DNA of 30,691 nucleotides from a virus. Position numbers and translations under genes: made by a program. Shown here in pieces: positions 8,485 to 24,746 of this stretch. The stretch lies in IMG/VR virus record IMGVR_UViG_3300042466_000171, positions 1-30,691 of that record, one strand, 5' to 3'. Numbering within the stretch: position 1 is the stretch's first letter; every line of letters begins with the position of its first letter. The notes under the pieces were generated by a model, which saw only the letters and a program-made list of their open reading frames with translations, ran no database searches and had not been told where the DNA came from.

Positions 8485-10929
8485 TTATAAACCTTTTAAT
8501 CTTATTACCGTTGTGAAATTTCCCCAAGTATCGACATCAAACTGCTGATTCCCTTTTGTTGGAAGTCTAACCGTATGCGTTGCCTTTGTATATCCGTTAT
8601 TAAATGGATTTACAATAATTAACAACGCTTCCGTTCCATCTGTGGACAACTTATAAGCTGAGATAGGCTTTTGCTGATTGTAAAGCATTACTGGATAATT
8701 AGAATTGTTTGCATCTGTATCAGATGTCCAAGTTCCGCTAACTAATAACTGCGTTTTAGTCCATTCGGTGTTAGCCGCAACAATATCCCGATTCTGTTCA
8801 ACTTGCCAATAGCCAACATAAAGCCAATCGAAAACTCCGTTGTCTAATTGTTGCAAATTGCCAAAGCCATAGAAAAAATTACCAAAGTTAATATTATCAC
8901 ATGGCCCATGATTATATTCTCCCCCGTAAGCATTCGGATCGTCCCACATTGATAAACCATCGCAATAAGCAAAACCCCAAACCGCCAACGATTGGAAATG
9001 GCTTGCGCATTGTGCCGGATTATCGGCGATGTAAGTTCCGTATTCAAATCCTTTTCTTTCCCAGTTAAAGTCTGAGAAATAAGGCAATGGCTCCATGTAT
9101 CTCCACGAATATGGCGAAGCTCGTTTTATTTTAGCATCATCAACGCTATAAATTTGCCCTAATATCTTTTTTGTAATATCGTAGTTATGAACTAATGAAT
9201 AAAAATACCATTTAGTAACAATTGTATTTAAATAACCTGAACAGAAAAACAATCCCCAACCATTTTTTGCGCCTTCGTAAAACGCATTATAATTAAGCAT
9301 CGTGGTTCTGCTAACCGTTCCGTTTATATAGTAATTGTGATAATCGCTATATAAATCCGTAGTTTTTACCGTTGCAATTGATTCAGTAGGTGCAACATAA
9401 AGCCATCCACTTGTTCCAGTTCCAAAATAGCCTGATTGGTAAATCCCTTCTCCATAAATACTAAACTTAGGAATTACTGCGCCATTTGCTGCCCAGTTAT
9501 TAGCGATTGAATAAGCCTTGCAACTTGCAAAAAGACCATCCATAGCAAGACCGGTATTTAACCGCTTTCTGCCAACTCCAATAAACGCTTCTCCATCGTG
9601 TTCGATGATTGCAGCGTGCGTTACATTCATCGGATTATTAACATCGTTAGTTAATGGATTGAACATTGATAAATACTGATTCGCTGGACTTAAATCATAA
9701 TATCCAATACCTGAATTTATAGCAGTTGTCCACTCGTATGGATTAACTTCCGCATAGGTTTTATTGATTGTCCCATTGTTGAATGTCCAAGTATCACGAT
9801 CCGCAATTGGAACTAATAAAGATTCCAAAACTGCACAACACCATGATTGGTCTATTGTTGAATCCGTGATATAATTAGGATTTGATGTAGTTCCGCCTGA
9901 TTTAACCCAAGCCGTTCCAACACGAATAAATGTATCAGCGTGATGGTATAATCGGTCTGCAATAGGCACAACTTCAGTTATGTTGTTAGTTGCTACACCT
10001 CCTTCAATGGATGAAACATAATTTGCATTAACTCCTGAAACCTGACCATTTACAAAGTTTTTAAAATATGTCGGCTTGCGTTTTGTCAATCCTTTATTTT
10101 GTCTTCTTGGATTTCTAAACGTTCTGGTAACTGCTCCCGCACCTCCATTCGTAAAAGTTCCGCTATCCTTAACCACGCAGTCAAGCAATGGATTGATAAG
10201 CATTGCAAACTCTTTTTTAACCCCATTTTTATCAAAGATTGGCAAGGCATCAGGCATTCTTCTAAAGAATGTTGGATATTCTTCGGCTTGCTTTGGTATT
10301 AAATAATCAGGTCTAAAATAATAGTTTACTTTTCCTACTGTTAGCGTTCTGTTCGAATCGGCTGCAATATGGATAGTTGAACTTAATAAATAAGTATGTG
10401 TAAATCCTTGTATTTCAGTACCGCCCCACATATTGCCCCAAAGTCCATTACGAATGACTAAATCATAGCCTTTCATGTCAGATAAATTGATGTCAGTTAG
10501 CGGAACATTATTAATCGTGCCGTTCTCGACTAACCATCTTCTATCTGAACTCCAAGTTGTGTCAGTTAATAAATTTGTTGAAGAATTTAAGGAATAAGTA
10601 ATATCTAAATCGTTTGTTTTTTGTTCCCCTGAATCTGCGCTAAAGTTCATGATTGAACCATCCGCAAAAGAAACATCCATTCCAGCATTTACCAATTCCG
10701 TTTTACTTCCGACAATCTTGCCATCATTTCCAAGCGTAACGTAATAGCTTTTAAACTGCGTTGGAATAACATAATTTCCAGCACTTGCTAAAATCGTTTT
10801 GGCTTCATTCGTGTAAAATATGGTTGTTGAATCCAACAAGTTATTATTGGCATATAAGATTTGTGAATCTACATCCGTTGTCGTACTGCCTAACTTTGTG
10901 CGTGCATCGCTTATGCTTGAAAATGCCAT
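8485..10929 (-). CDS. Large tail protein with enzyme-like C-terminal half
   Basis: An 814-residue protein. The first 70 residues (LLDSTTIFYTNEAKTILASA) resemble the adhesin repeats at the end of the neighbouring 853-residue protein. The middle is rich in Trp, Tyr, Asn and Gly (VIRNGLWGNMWGGTEI near 160). From about residue 600 there are aromatic and acidic segments such as YSWRYMEPLPYFSDFNWERK and WGFAYCDGLSMWDDP, and a final beta-sandwich-like region (ALLIIVNPFNNGY). The pattern suggests a carbohydrate-active enzyme fold with a C-terminal beta domain, so a glycan-cleaving tail spike or receptor-binding protein is my inference. I could not identify a specific glycosidase family or catalytic pair. 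Confidence 0.6.
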   Translation of the reverse strand: MAFSSISDARTKLGSTTTDVDSQILYANNNLLDSTTIFYTNEAKTILASAGNYVIPTQFKSYYVTLGNDGKIVGSKTELVNAGMDVSFADGSIMNFSADSGEQKTNDLDITYSLNSSTNLLTDTTWSSDRRWLVENGTINNVPLTDINLSDMKGYDLVIRNGLWGNMWGGTEIQGFTHTYLLSSTIHIAADSNRTLTVGKVNYYFRPDYLIPKQAEEYPTFFRRMPDALPIFDKNGVKKEFAMLINPLLDCVVKDSGTFTNGGAGAVTRTFRNPRRQNKGLTKRKPTYFKNFVNGQVSGVNANYVSSIEGGVATNNITEVVPIADRLYHHADTFIRVGTAWVKSGGTTSNPNYITDSTIDQSWCCAVLESLLVPIADRDTWTFNNGTINKTYAEVNPYEWTTAINSGIGYYDLSPANQYLSMFNPLTNDVNNPMNVTHAAIIEHDGEAFIGVGRKRLNTGLAMDGLFASCKAYSIANNWAANGAVIPKFSIYGEGIYQSGYFGTGTSGWLYVAPTESIATVKTTDLYSDYHNYYINGTVSRTTMLNYNAFYEGAKNGWGLFFCSGYLNTIVTKWYFYSLVHNYDITKKILGQIYSVDDAKIKRASPYSWRYMEPLPYFSDFNWERKGFEYGTYIADNPAQCASHFQSLAVWGFAYCDGLSMWDDPNAYGGEYNHGPCDNINFGNFFYGFGNLQQLDNGVFDWLYVGYWQVEQNRDIVAANTEWTKTQLLVSGTWTSDTDANNSNYPVMLYNQQKPISAYKLSTDGTEALLIIVNPFNNGYTKATHTVRLPTKGNQQFDVDTWGNFTTVIRLKGL

Positions 10930-17571: not shown

Positions 17572-17926
17572 CCTTGAATTTTACCAAATCACTAAGGTTA
17601 AAATCTTTTACTTCGTGCGTATTATTACTTTCGACGTGCGTCATTGCCAACTGCTTTAATTCGTCTGGCGATGCAATCAGCTTCATTAATCCCATTTGTA
17701 ACGTTGGATTCTCTGACTTGTACCACTTTGAACGCATAGAAACCTTTATTTCGGTTTTTACTTTTGTCAATGAATCTTTTATGGTGTCTAATTTTTCCAA
17801 TTCAAGATTGTAAAATGTTGCTCTTGAGCATGGAAGGTATGCGATGACATCGTCGATGAAGAATAATTTATTCTTTTCGATTGCCTCCAGTGCTTTCTTT
17901 TCTAATTCCTTTGGATTATATGCCAT
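17552..17926 (-). CDS. terS: Terminase small subunit
   Basis: A 124-residue protein directly before terL. The N-terminus (NPKELEKKALEAIEKNKLFF) is followed by a likely helix-turn-helix with AYLPCSRATFYNL, where the second helix would read the packaging site. Residues 55-95 (SLTKVKTEIKVSMRSKWYKS and on) form a basic helical oligomerisation region. The C-terminus is short, acidic and flexible. It selects the phage DNA and hands it to the large subunit. It overlaps the methyltransferase gene by 11 bases. Identification rests on HTH, size and adjacency to terL. Confidence 0.82.
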   Translation of the reverse strand: MAYNPKELEKKALEAIEKNKLFFIDDVIAYLPCSRATFYNLELEKLDTIKDSLTKVKTEIKVSMRSKWYKSENPTLQMGLMKLIASPDELKQLAMTHVESNNTHEVKDFNLSDLVKFKDDSPKQ

Positions 17927-19046
17927 ACGGTTGTCCGTTCTTTTTAATTACTAAGGTTGAATCTAATTTCTGCATTCGGTCAACTATTACTTGACAATAC
18001 CTTGGATCAAGTTCCATTCCATAGCATTTACGATTTAACTGATGTGATGCTACCATTGTAGAACCTGAGCCAAGAAAAGCATCATAAATATTTTTTTTAT
18101 CCGGATTATCTTTCATCGCCATTTCTATTAATGAAATTGGCTTCATTGTTGGATGAACGGTATTCCTTTCTCTTTTCGTTTGCCACACATCACCACGAAT
18201 TGTTTTTTGTCCTCCAAATTTTCCGTGATAGAGAATAATTTCGTGTTGCTTAAAATACTTATCTAAATGCTGAGCTGGATTTACTTTATCCCATACAATA
18301 AATGCTTTTACTGGCTTTTGTAAATCTTCCATAGCTTTTCTAAATAAATGAGAATATTGCCAAGAACAACAAACATAAAAGGTATCGCTATTAACATTTA
18401 AAGCATCGTAAATAAACTGAGTAAAATCTTCATCACTCATTTTATCATTTGCAATTTTATCTCTTTTATCTTTAACTCCTTGATAATCGATATTGTATGG
18501 AGGATCAGTAAAAACCATTTCAATTTTATTGCCACCTAAAACCTTAGCAACCGAATCGCTATCCGTCGAATCCCCACAAAGTAATCTATGCTCTCCAATC
18601 TCAAACAAATCCCCTAACACAATATCCGTTTCAATAGTATCAGGCACATCGTAATTATCTTCCTGTGCCGTTCCTTCGTCCTTAATATCAAATACCGGTA
18701 AATCTAATCCCCAAGCCTCTAATTCATCTGCATCCCATTCATTAGCAATCATATCCCAATCCCATTCTCCTCCGCTTGTATTATCCTTAATCAAAAACTC
18801 CCTTTGCTTGTCCTCTGATAAATCCGTAACGATAACCGGTATCTCTTTAATGCCAGCTTCTTTGCAAGCTCTGTACCGCATATTGCCCCCTAAGATAATC
18901 ATGTCTTTATTGACAACAATCGGACGAATGTCCAACATCTCAGGGAAATCCTTAATTGACTGAACTAACTTTTTAAATTTATCGTCCTTGATTAATCGAG
19001 GATTATTTGGATTTAGTTTAATATCGGTAATCTTTCTTAACTCCAT
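17916..19046 (-). CDS. ParB-domain DNA methyltransferase (N6-adenine type, DPPY)
   Basis: A 376-residue fusion. Residues 1-80 form a ParB/Srx-like domain with ILGGNMRYRACKEAG (51-65). After an acidic linker, a methyltransferase domain has the catalytic motif DPPYN (181-185) and the SAM-binding motif FLGSGST (324-330). The catalytic motif precedes the SAM motif, which is the beta-class order seen in CcrM-like N6-adenine enzymes. It would methylate phage DNA and so protect it from host restriction or mark it for packaging. It sits directly before terS. The ParB-like domain may bring the enzyme to a DNA site or act as a nuclease-like fold; its activity is not predictable here. Confidence 0.88.
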   Translation of the reverse strand: MELRKITDIKLNPNNPRLIKDDKFKKLVQSIKDFPEMLDIRPIVVNKDMIILGGNMRYRACKEAGIKEIPVIVTDLSEDKQREFLIKDNTSGGEWDWDMIANEWDADELEAWGLDLPVFDIKDEGTAQEDNYDVPDTIETDIVLGDLFEIGEHRLLCGDSTDSDSVAKVLGGNKIEMVFTDPPYNIDYQGVKDKRDKIANDKMSDEDFTQFIYDALNVNSDTFYVCCSWQYSHLFRKAMEDLQKPVKAFIVWDKVNPAQHLDKYFKQHEIILYHGKFGGQKTIRGDVWQTKRERNTVHPTMKPISLIEMAMKDNPDKKNIYDAFLGSGSTMVASHQLNRKCYGMELDPRYCQVIVDRMQKLDSTLVIKKNGQPYGI

Positions 19047-22397: not shown

Positions 22398-23360
22398 TTA
22401 AAAAAGTTCTGTTTGATTTATAATTGGACTCAATCTTTGATTGCAAATCTTTAAATATTTTTCACTCATTTCACTTCCAATAAATTTTCTTTGACTTCTT
22501 AGCGCTGCTTCAGCCGTGCTACCAGTACCCATAAATGGATCGTAAACAATACCATCTTTAGGGCATCCAGCTAATATTGGTTTTTTAATTAAAGAATCAT
22601 TGTAAGAAGCATAGTGTTCGTTTGAACTTGGCTTTGTAGGTATATCCCAAAAATCAGAAACATCACCGGGATTTTTACCTAATGGATTGCAAAATCTATC
22701 ACCCATTTTATCTGTGTCAATGCTACCAATTGAATCATGTTCAGACTTCCATCCATATTCTATTCTTTGTAACGAAGATTCTTTATGTTTATCTCTAATT
22801 GCATCTAAATCAAAAAAATATTTTTCTTGCTTAACCATAAAAAAGAAATATTCATGTTTTTTTGTAAATCTATCAGTTACTGGCTCAGGCATTCCATTTC
22901 TCTTTGCCCATATAACATCGTTTCTTAAAATCCAACCTCTATCAATGCACCCAATTGCAAATCTATGCGGAATTAACAAAAGACATTTATTTTTTATTTC
23001 ATCACATTTTTGTTGTTGAAATCCTTGACCTAAAATATTCTTTTTAGAAATTGATGCTTTAGAATTATTTTTTTTTGCTCTTTCTAATCCTCTTATTCCA
23101 CCTGAAATTGTATTATAAGTATCTCCTAAATTTATCCATACGGTTCCGCTTGGTTTTAAAACTCGATAAATCTCATCCATCATAGACCAAAGATTTTCTA
23201 AATATTGATTAAAAGTAGGTTCCAAACCCCATTGTCCTTCATATCCATAATCTCTTAATTGCCAGTACGGAGGCGATGTAATTACGCAATCAATAAATTC
23301 ATTTGGCATCTTTTTTAAAGTTTCCAAACAAGGCTCATTATAAATTTTATTTATTTCCAT
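22398..23360 (-). CDS. DNA methyltransferase, SPPY type (probably N4-cytosine)
   Basis: A 320-residue single-domain enzyme. The catalytic motif SPPYW is at 29-33 and the SAM-binding motif FMGTGST at 276-282. LKPSGTVWINLGDTY (about 67-81) is a conserved N6_N4_Mtase block. SPPY rather than DPPY points to N4-cytosine methylation. Motif order (catalytic first) is again beta class. With the enzyme at 17916-19046 the phage carries two methyltransferases of probably different base preference. The gene looks even more AT-rich than its neighbours, with many A/T runs, which may mean later acquisition. It splits the small-gene block and abuts the replication gene by a 1-base overlap. Confidence 0.9.
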   Translation of the reverse strand: MEINKIYNEPCLETLKKMPNEFIDCVITSPPYWQLRDYGYEGQWGLEPTFNQYLENLWSMMDEIYRVLKPSGTVWINLGDTYNTISGGIRGLERAKKNNSKASISKKNILGQGFQQQKCDEIKNKCLLLIPHRFAIGCIDRGWILRNDVIWAKRNGMPEPVTDRFTKKHEYFFFMVKQEKYFFDLDAIRDKHKESSLQRIEYGWKSEHDSIGSIDTDKMGDRFCNPLGKNPGDVSDFWDIPTKPSSNEHYASYNDSLIKKPILAGCPKDGIVYDPFMGTGSTAEAALRSQRKFIGSEMSEKYLKICNQRLSPIINQTELF

Positions 23361-24103
23361 TATATAATAGGTTTAATTTTTCCTTCTGAATCTAATCTAC
23401 ATTCAAAATCTACTAATTGATTGATAAATTTAATATATCCTTTAGTCTTGCAAATAAGTTTTAATTCTTCTTTGTCTTGAATGTTTGCATATTTATTCCA
23501 AATTTCAAGCCGTTCTTCAGTTGTAAGACATTGAATCTCAAACTTATTAAGATAGTCCCATAAAACTGATAAGCCTCCAGCGATGAACGTAAATTGCTTT
23601 CCTTCTTTGTTTGCTTTATCTAACTGGTCTGCATAAAAGTTAGCCGTTTCAATTGCTTGCTTTTTTAATTCTTGATTACTTGGAACTTCTTTCATAGGTT
23701 CTATTTCTTTAGGTAATCCCTTTACTTCGTTTCTTGAATAGTCAATGTATGCTTTCATAATTCGAGCAAAGTATTCGCAACTAAAATTCTCGTAGCATTT
23801 AACATCGGTTTCAAACTTGCCAGCGATTGCATATTCAAAAGCTAATCTGATTTCCTCAGGTGTTTGATTTCCAAAGTTTACTCTGATAAAATTAAGCAAG
23901 ACAAATTTTTCTTCATCTGTCGGCATATTTGCACCTCGTAAACCAACCAAGACCATCGCATAACGAATCGCTTCTTTAATGTCATCCTCTGACCTTTGTC
24001 TGATTGTTATGGTGCTTTGTGCTTGAACTATTGGCGATAAGCTACCACTTGCGTAAGGCTTCCATTCTTGCCGCACTGGTGCCAAGTTTTGGTTCGTTTC
24101 CAT
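23360..24103 (-). CDS. Replication-associated protein (putative helicase loader or replisome organiser)
   Basis: A 247-residue protein directly after the initiator gene. The N-terminal third is Gln/Ser/Ile-rich and flexible. Then come MPTDEEKFVLLNFIRVNFG, TPEEIRLAFEYAIAGKFETD and NFSCEYFARIMKAYIDYSRN (about 60-123), a helical block I associate with replication-module proteins of Bacteroidota phages. The C-terminal half is helical and charged. Position after a Lin1244-type initiator and overlap by 62 bases suggest it works with it, as lambda P works with O. I see no Walker motif, so it is not an ATPase helicase itself. The specific role is inference. Confidence 0.62.
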   Translation of the reverse strand: METNQNLAPVRQEWKPYASGSLSPIVQAQSTITIRQRSEDDIKEAIRYAMVLVGLRGANMPTDEEKFVLLNFIRVNFGNQTPEEIRLAFEYAIAGKFETDVKCYENFSCEYFARIMKAYIDYSRNEVKGLPKEIEPMKEVPSNQELKKQAIETANFYADQLDKANKEGKQFTFIAGGLSVLWDYLNKFEIQCLTTEERLEIWNKYANIQDKEELKLICKTKGYIKFINQLVDFECRLDSEGKIKPII

Positions 24104-24746
24104 TGTTATTGAATTTAGATTTGTTTTGCATCCAAGTGCTTATTCTTCTGCTAATATTAAAAAACTTTTCTAATTCCCATCTTTCTCTACCTTTTTTATC
24201 TTTCTCAGTCCAGTATTCATAAAAGTTATTATATTCAGAATTTAATTCGTTAATGAAAGGCGAAAGCATTTCGCTAAAACTTACTTTACTTTCTTTTTCT
24301 TTTATTTCATTTACTTTACTTTCATTTACTTTACTTTCCTTTGTTGAACGGTCGTTGAACGGTCGTTGAACATCCGTTGAACTGTCATTGAGCATCCGTT
24401 TAGCGGCACTCTTTAATCCAGCTGATTTGCGTTGTTCCTTCATTTTAAAGTAAGGCTCTAAATAAACCAACATCTTTGGACTGAAAAACTTTTGGTCTTC
24501 ATCAATTTCGAATAATTGATAATTGCAAACACATACACGAACCTTCGCTTCTGATACTTGAAATTCCTCAGCTAACAAATCCAAATCTTCCAATGGATAC
24601 ATCAGGTCTTGTTGCTCTCGTAAAGTTTCTAATAACATGAAATAAATTCCGTACCCCTCTGTCCCTAACTCCTTTCTTAATCTTCTAATCTTTCGATCGT
24701 GCCTCGCATTGCAGAAATGCGGAAAATAAAACGCTTCTTTTTCCAT
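24042..24746 (-). CDS. Replication initiator-like protein (Lin1244/Lin1753 N-terminal domain)
   Basis: I choose the ATG at 24746 (MEKEAFYFPHFCNARHDRKI). An upstream TTG at 24785 would start inside a terminator hairpin. The N-terminal 90 residues (FPHFCNARHDRKIRRLRKEL, GTEGYGIYFMLLETLREQ) are typical of the Lin1244/Lin1753-like domain, a winged-helix-like domain found in phage replication proteins. The middle (about 120-165) is low-complexity, with STDVQRPFNDRSTKES and the twofold ESKVN repeat. It is encoded by the iteron array and AT-rich repeats. The C-terminal part is helical, WTEKDKKGRERWELEKFF. It likely binds the iterons in its own gene and starts DNA replication. The final length is 234 residues. 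Confidence 0.8.
   Translation of the reverse strand: MEKEAFYFPHFCNARHDRKIRRLRKELGTEGYGIYFMLLETLREQQDLMYPLEDLDLLAEEFQVSEAKVRVCVCNYQLFEIDEDQKFFSPKMLVYLEPYFKMKEQRKSAGLKSAAKRMLNDSSTDVQRPFNDRSTKESKVNESKVNEIKEKESKVSFSEMLSPFINELNSEYNNFYEYWTEKDKKGRERWELEKFFNISRRISTWMQNKSKFNNNGNEPKLGTSAARMEALRKW
24309..24404. other. Candidate replication origin: iterons next to AT-rich direct repeats
   Basis: On the plus strand six 11-bp units lie end to end from 24339 to 24404: CTTTGTTGAAC, GGTCGTTGAAC twice, ATCCGTTGAAC, TGTCATTGAGC and ATCCGTTTAGC. The last two are degenerate. Beside them, 24309-24338 holds two perfect 15-bp repeats of ATTTACTTTACTTTC, with a partial third near 24280. Eleven bases is one helical turn and not a multiple of three, so the repeat is selected as DNA rather than protein. 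Iterons plus an AT-rich tract inside the initiator gene is the layout of the lambda origin. The function is inferred. Confidence 0.72.

Follow-up and report, generated by a model that had tools for sequence, protein, structure and literature searches.

The Locus

The window (by which we mean the whole stretch of DNA that was analyzed, a 30.7-kb virus record of 30,691 nucleotides) carries on its minus strand a gene for a protein of 234 residues that matches a known family of replication initiation proteins, and inside that gene lie the repeats that are our subject. The genes and features at this place are as follows, in order of position.

23360..24103, minus strand: the next gene, 247 aa, of no known family or fold (no Pfam match, and no PDB homologue by fold search), a candidate helicase loader; DnaB replaces it in some relatives
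24042..24746, minus strand: the initiator gene, 234 aa, with a Lin1244_N domain (PF14297, E 6.7e-15; PHROG 2562, "replication initiation protein," E 6.8e-23)
24108..24278, minus strand: codons of a C-terminal helical domain (residues 157-213, from the model), exchanged among relatives and a candidate partner-binding part
24281..24342, plus strand: a tract rich in T, or in A when read on the coding strand, that includes the two 15-bp repeats (24309 and 24324); by its composition and stability, a candidate unwinding element
24343..24386, plus strand: four 11-bp iterons (7-bp dyad core GTTGAAC and 4-bp spacer), seen in the sequence and kept in relatives
24387..24408, plus strand: two degenerate iterons (ATTGAGC, GTTTAGC) over helix-tip codons, from lag-11 and sequence analysis
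24390..24479, minus strand: codons of one long helix (residues 90-119) in the AlphaFold2 model
24396-24422, minus strand: the class motif AGLKSAAKR at the helix tip (residues 109-117), whose class co-varies with the iteron core
24483..24716, minus strand: codons of a winged-helix-like N-terminal domain (residues 11-88; AlphaFold2 model, core pLDDT about 90-96)

The protein belongs to the Lin1244_N family, scoring 56 bits against a cutoff of 25. The profile of DUF1376 (PF07120) does not match it, and its ties to that family are related architecture and shared iterons only; searches of Pfam and PHROG gave no sequence match to a lambda O-like family. Nor does it qualify as a Rep_3-type plasmid initiator, the Rep3_N profile giving just a weak match over helix and linker that, at 17.4 bits, stays below the cutoff of 22.4. 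In the AlphaFold2 model (mean pLDDT 74.6), a compact domain of helices and one short strand comes first, then the long helix, and finally the C-terminal helical domain. A PDB fold search with this model found no confident homologue, only weak winged-helix matches (best E 0.2). Between the DNA-binding and C-terminal domains, residues 123-154 are disordered in the model, and they are coded by the end of the array together with the tract. Among relatives, the C-terminal part comes in three exchangeable types, and the N-domain and array stay constant.

In most of the cases checked, the gene after the initiator is a DnaC-like loader (L137, L151, L157, and E. coli YdaV), a DnaB (L144, L079, L082), or a member of the 247-aa family; it is a methylase in L099, and in L030 and L071, we found no family for it. 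Among 78 relatives of the window, the 247-aa family fills this place in 73 and DnaB in 5, and the two never occur together. The 247-aa protein could thus be a helicase loader of a new type. The window also has two DNA methyltransferase genes, at 17916-19046 and 22398-23360, the first of which matches methyltransferase and ParB-like families.

An Array of 11-bp Units

The original prediction, made without database searches, described six 11-bp units built on a core GTTGAAC, the last two degenerate, and all six are real. Exact GTTGAAC units start on the plus strand at 24343, 24354, 24365, and 24376; ATTGAGC at 24387 and GTTTAGC at 24398 follow on the same strand in register with the four exact ones, and the spacing is exactly 11 from one end of the array to the other. 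Two details need amending. The array had been given an end at 24404, and the sixth unit reaches slightly further, to 24408. The two perfect 15-bp repeats (ATTTACTTTACTTTC) do exist, at 24309 and 24324, but they had been said to flank the array, and they instead stand in tandem on a single side of it. The degeneracy of the last two units may come from their overlap with conserved codons of the helix tip (residues about 114-120, AAKRMLN), although this is inference.

Chance does not readily produce such a pattern: the best lag-11 score of the initiator gene is 20, and the maximum was 11 in 2000 codon shuffles and 15 in 2000 synonymous recodings of the same protein. Elsewhere in the window, a search for GTTGAACGGTC at no more than two mismatches gave just scattered weak matches.

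Kept as DNA

Is the array a property of one phage, or is it shared more widely? By protein similarity, we found 80 relatives of the window initiator, and all 80 carry the array at the same place, as judged from linker DNA for L002-L069 and from linker peptides and pattern counts for L070-L081. Every one of the linker DNAs L002-L069 has GTTSAAC-like units with a period of 11. Under a stricter count, which took in both relatives and genes found by pattern, only L005 and L047 are without two exact cores at a distance of 11, each through single changes. Related phages with the same gene and no repeats there, if they replicated from another site, were to have refuted the original prediction; no relatives lacking the repeats turned up in this set.

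The cores occupy all three codon phases in homologous genes (42, 43, and 28 counts), so that the core is translated as VQQ, RST, or PFN depending on phase, and the consensus GTTCAACGACC is identical in each phase. We note that the set used for consensus and conservation was partly picked by the core pattern; the phase result holds also in the sets chosen by protein. Conservation is concentrated in the 7-bp core and not in the 4-bp spacer. The core itself is a dyad, GTT-N-AAC (3-N-3), with a variable center base. Distances from core to core are 11, 22, 33, or 44, with few exceptions, and thus the register survives where a single unit has decayed. It had been argued from the period alone, eleven not being a multiple of three, that the repeat is selected as DNA and is not the by-product of a protein repeat; the three codon phases, the gaps in multiples of 11, and a noncoding copy (described below) now give that claim stronger backing.

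One might still imagine that the thing conserved is a repetitive linker peptide, RSTTVQRPFND, since the linkers are of low complexity and a 33-bp unit would yield an 11-aa repeat. However, in homologous genes one and the same core is translated in three frames to give different peptides, noncoding copies exist, and the linker is disordered in the model. One might also imagine that there is no function at all, and that short tandem repeats, which expand easily, have merely slipped neutrally in a tolerant linker (the disorder in the model would suit this). Against that, the register is kept over degenerate gaps of 22, 33, and 44, conservation holds for the core but not for the spacer, the units are common to proteins of about 20% identity, and they correlate with the helix tip, as we describe below. 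We give either reading next to no credence and reject both on the evidence of frame, register, and co-variation.

Arrays Found from DNA and from Protein

The question can be asked from the DNA side, with no reference to any protein. We scanned viral contigs for three spaced cores; among the matches listed, 111 of the 118 array places in ORFs fall in ORFs that match DUF1376 or Lin1244 models (by Pfam alone, among those same listed matches, 92 of the 118 scanned ORFs are DUF1376 and 19 are Lin1244, window included). Taking all of the loci collected, these matches included, 175 of 183 arrays of at least three units lie in initiator ORFs. The other eight are a mixed lot: five (L095, L119, L132, L146, and L183) resemble distant members by eye but were not significant with the models used, one (L113) is cut by the end of its contig, one (L127) is apparently noncoding, and one (L082) is noncoding. 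The proteins that have these units in common are distantly related (about 20% identity).

From the protein side, four sets were gathered by similarity: Lin1244 relatives of the window, DUF1376 from viral contigs, DUF1376 from bacterial genomes, and Lin1244 of the Lactobacillus/Enterococcus type. The last three were found with the N-domain only as query; the first was found with six search peptides drawn from the whole protein, of which one (KVNEIKEK) falls in the linker. Each set was filtered for redundancy, and periodicity in the stretch after the DNA-binding domain was compared with a codon-shuffle null. In all four sets, lag 11 comes out strongest (z 20.2, 32.0, 14.3, and 13.6, in the order given), with lags 22 and 33 raised in all four and lag 44 in three. 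In the N-domain, which served as the control stretch, two sets show nothing at lag 11, a third shows a weak signal, and the DUF1376 viral genes show a clear one (z 10). This last signal apparently arises from extra GTTCAAC-like units coding PLNxCSTxVAR, which form another run in that set (L206-L285).

The original prediction was framed around the initiator of this phage. That scope is too narrow, the feature belonging to the whole DUF1376/Lin1244 superfamily.

Core Letters and the Helix Tip

The letters of the core go with the residues at the tip of the long helix. Among nonredundant genes, at least two GTTNAAC cores occur in 58 of the 70 with AGKASAxKR (KR) tips and in 1 of the 82 others, this single exception (L211) looking misclassified. 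With xxRW tips, the core is often GCANTGC (30/68 vs. 1/84 of the others), and with GGRPKK tips, it is in some genes CCANTGG (5/14 vs. 2/138), a link that is suggestive only. Within the RW class, we noticed by eye a sub-class with ATCNGAT dyads (L237, L248, L252, L253, and L268, mostly with ANQIRW tips), which suggests finer steps in the correspondence of tip and core. Dyads of the same letters stand 11, 22, or 33 bp apart in 111 pairs in the KR class and 26 pairs in the RW class, where null means are about 0.1; in the GGR class, the spacing is marginal.

How much weight can this bear? Fisher values (1e-28 for KR, 8e-12 for RW, and 6e-5 for GGRPKK) are descriptive only, because the tip classes were spotted in part of these same data before anything was counted. 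On a tree built without the motif columns, we count about 9 changes of the KR class; supported branches offer four independent pairs, of which two to four agree, depending on the pairing chosen, and none oppose (p 0.125). The association of tip and core is strong, then, but it is confounded by descent, and its independence from descent is only suggested.

The same results bear on whether the array might be a partition site, occupied by a centromere-binding protein as parC is by ParR, or a packaging site, occupied by terminase. Plasmid parC sites are also arrays of about 11 bp, and this similarity of period is the attraction of the idea. A ParR/parC system should have genes for a partner ATPase and a centromere-binding protein beside the array, and here, the immediate neighbors are the initiator and the 247-aa family, with no partition gene recognized among them; no parM- or parA-like gene was recognized among the families searched either, in the part of the window that was covered. 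The small-terminase candidate is about 6 kb away from the array. Moreover, 175 of the 183 arrays are tied to the initiator gene, and their letters track the initiator's own helix tip. We hold a partition or packaging site to be very improbable.

The A-Rich Tract and a Second Copy

Next to the array is the other half of the arrangement. The tract at 24281-24342 has no G in 60 nt, its excess of T over A is at the 99.97th percentile of the window, and its duplex instability is at the 98.4th. Read on the coding strand, an A-rich, T-poor tract comes after the array, and relatives have it on the same side and the same strand. An origin lodged inside an initiator gene should have, among other things, tandem direct repeats within the gene that are kept as DNA and an AT-rich tract directly beside them. 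The repeats are there, and so is the tract, which is strongly strand-asymmetric and of low stability; that it unwinds is inferred. A helicase or its loader should also be encoded beside the initiator; several relatives have one there (DnaC-like or DnaB), and the window has the 247-aa family of unknown function in that position.

One relative (L082) has the arrangement twice. Its Lin1244 gene, at 907-1614, contains a short array of its own, and a second array with an A-rich tract lies in intergenic DNA at 9138-9210, 7.5 kb from that gene. In another contig (L127:4196-4246), at least five iterons are followed by an A/C-rich tract on the reading strand, with no recognizable initiator domain around them, apparently a second noncoding case.

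The most serious competitor of an origin is an operator. The initiator, as the likely binder, could sit on the array in its own gene, within a transcribed early operon, and block transcription, thereby holding down its own amount or that of the products of genes downstream, with the origin somewhere else. Such autoregulation fails to predict a conserved A-rich tract on one side and one strand, and it fails to predict the intergenic copy of array and tract 7.5 kb away. In lambda and SPP1, moreover, sites within genes with this sort of layout are origins (PMC7466680, PMC6316719). We regard autoregulation as unlikely, if less so than partition.

Discussion

We think it very probable, although not certain, that the phage keeps a theta-type origin inside its own initiator gene, with the array as the part that is bound. 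What we observed is the array and its place, its conservation at the DNA level, the way it co-varies with the helix tip, and the tract and genes beside it; that the protein binds there, that the DNA melts, that helicase is loaded, and that the site acts as an origin are inferences. That the initiator binds the repeats has a sole support, the co-variation of helix tip and core, and there are no binding or replication data for any member of the family. GC skew is of no help: third-position skew goes from 0.14 to 0.06 across the site, which cannot be interpreted from one genome, and skew is uninformative because nearly all of the genes are co-oriented.

An origin of this kind might work as follows. 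Copies of the Lin1244 protein would bind the 11-bp units, about one helical turn apart, with recognition probably involving the winged-helix domain and the long helix that closes it, at its basic tip. With the N-domains lined up on the iterons, the bound row could destabilize the adjacent strand-asymmetric A-rich tract and so open it, after which the C-terminal domain would recruit the replicative helicase. The route for the helicase could differ from phage to phage: here, the candidate is the 247-aa protein, loading the host helicase, and in relatives, it would be a DnaC-like loader or the phage's own DnaB.

With rather less assurance, we also lean toward a broader claim, that DUF1376 and Lin1244 make up one initiator superfamily with an origin written into the gene by a common rule (11-bp units, each a 3-N-3 dyad and a 4-bp spacer, and then an A-rich tract), the letters of the core being set by a few residues at one helix tip. 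If this is true, the origins of thousands of phages and prophages, in several bacterial phyla, and perhaps their specificity code, could be read straight from the sequence. DUF1376 is annotated as being of "unknown function," and such genes are often "hypothetical" in phage records; the result gives the family a probable function, and it makes the likely replication origin of many phages obtainable from sequence alone. It also explains some odd linker peptides (RSTTVQRPFND and AMRTQCERNAN) as translated binding sites, binding itself being inferred, and it proposes a code for protein-DNA recognition that can be tested.

The open literature, as far as we searched it, describes no origin or iterons for DUF1376/Lin1244: we found nothing for Lin1244/Lin1753, nothing useful for DUF1376 or YdaU, and no phage iterons of 11 bp of this kind. 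Subscription journals were outside the scope, and this is weak evidence.

Comparison with Known Systems

The Rac prophage of E. coli has an active origin, oriJ (PMC3945230). Its YdaU is like the proteins considered here, a DUF1376 member with an AGKASVQARR tip and a DnaC-like YdaV next to it. As a positive control, the cryptic ydaU gene of E. coli K-12 failed, having no exact or clean 11-bp array; its linker (L200:10512-10590) has degenerate GTTNNAA-like boxes only, roughly 11-13 bp apart.

The Rep protein of the lactococcal phage TP901-1 (L481), a replication protein whose record is marked "experimental," also has tandem repeats where its gene codes for the linker. It differs in family (HTH_36 and DnaB_2) and in a period of 15 bp rather than 11, and on both counts, we rejected it as a relative.

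The arrangement is found in SPP1, in which oriL lies inside gene 38, the gene of gp38, and oriR lies elsewhere (PMC6316719). There too, direct repeats and an AT-rich unwinding element are found within the initiator gene, and the system includes loader and helicase genes. The initiator family is a different one, and the repeat unit in the window is of 11 bp. The pair of SPP1 origins, one in the gene and one at a distance, parallels the second, distant copy in L082.

The layout is also that of lambda, where ori-lambda lies in the middle of the O gene, with iterons and then an AT-rich tract (PMC7466680). In both systems, the origin (here, a proposed one) is in mid-gene, the order runs from iterons to AT-rich tract to the C-terminal part of the initiator, and a loader gene (in our case, a candidate) comes next. 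The initiators are of different families, and the four iterons of lambda are longer, about 18-20 bp each, than the 11-bp units of the window with their 7-bp dyad core. The original prediction spoke of a layout like that of lambda O with a Lin1244-type initiator, and this holds: the stretch that codes for the disordered linker, which joins the DNA-binding domain to the C-terminal one, has iterons and then an A-rich tract. As an arrangement, the site resembles a lambda-type in-gene origin, yet by its sequence the initiator stands outside the O family.
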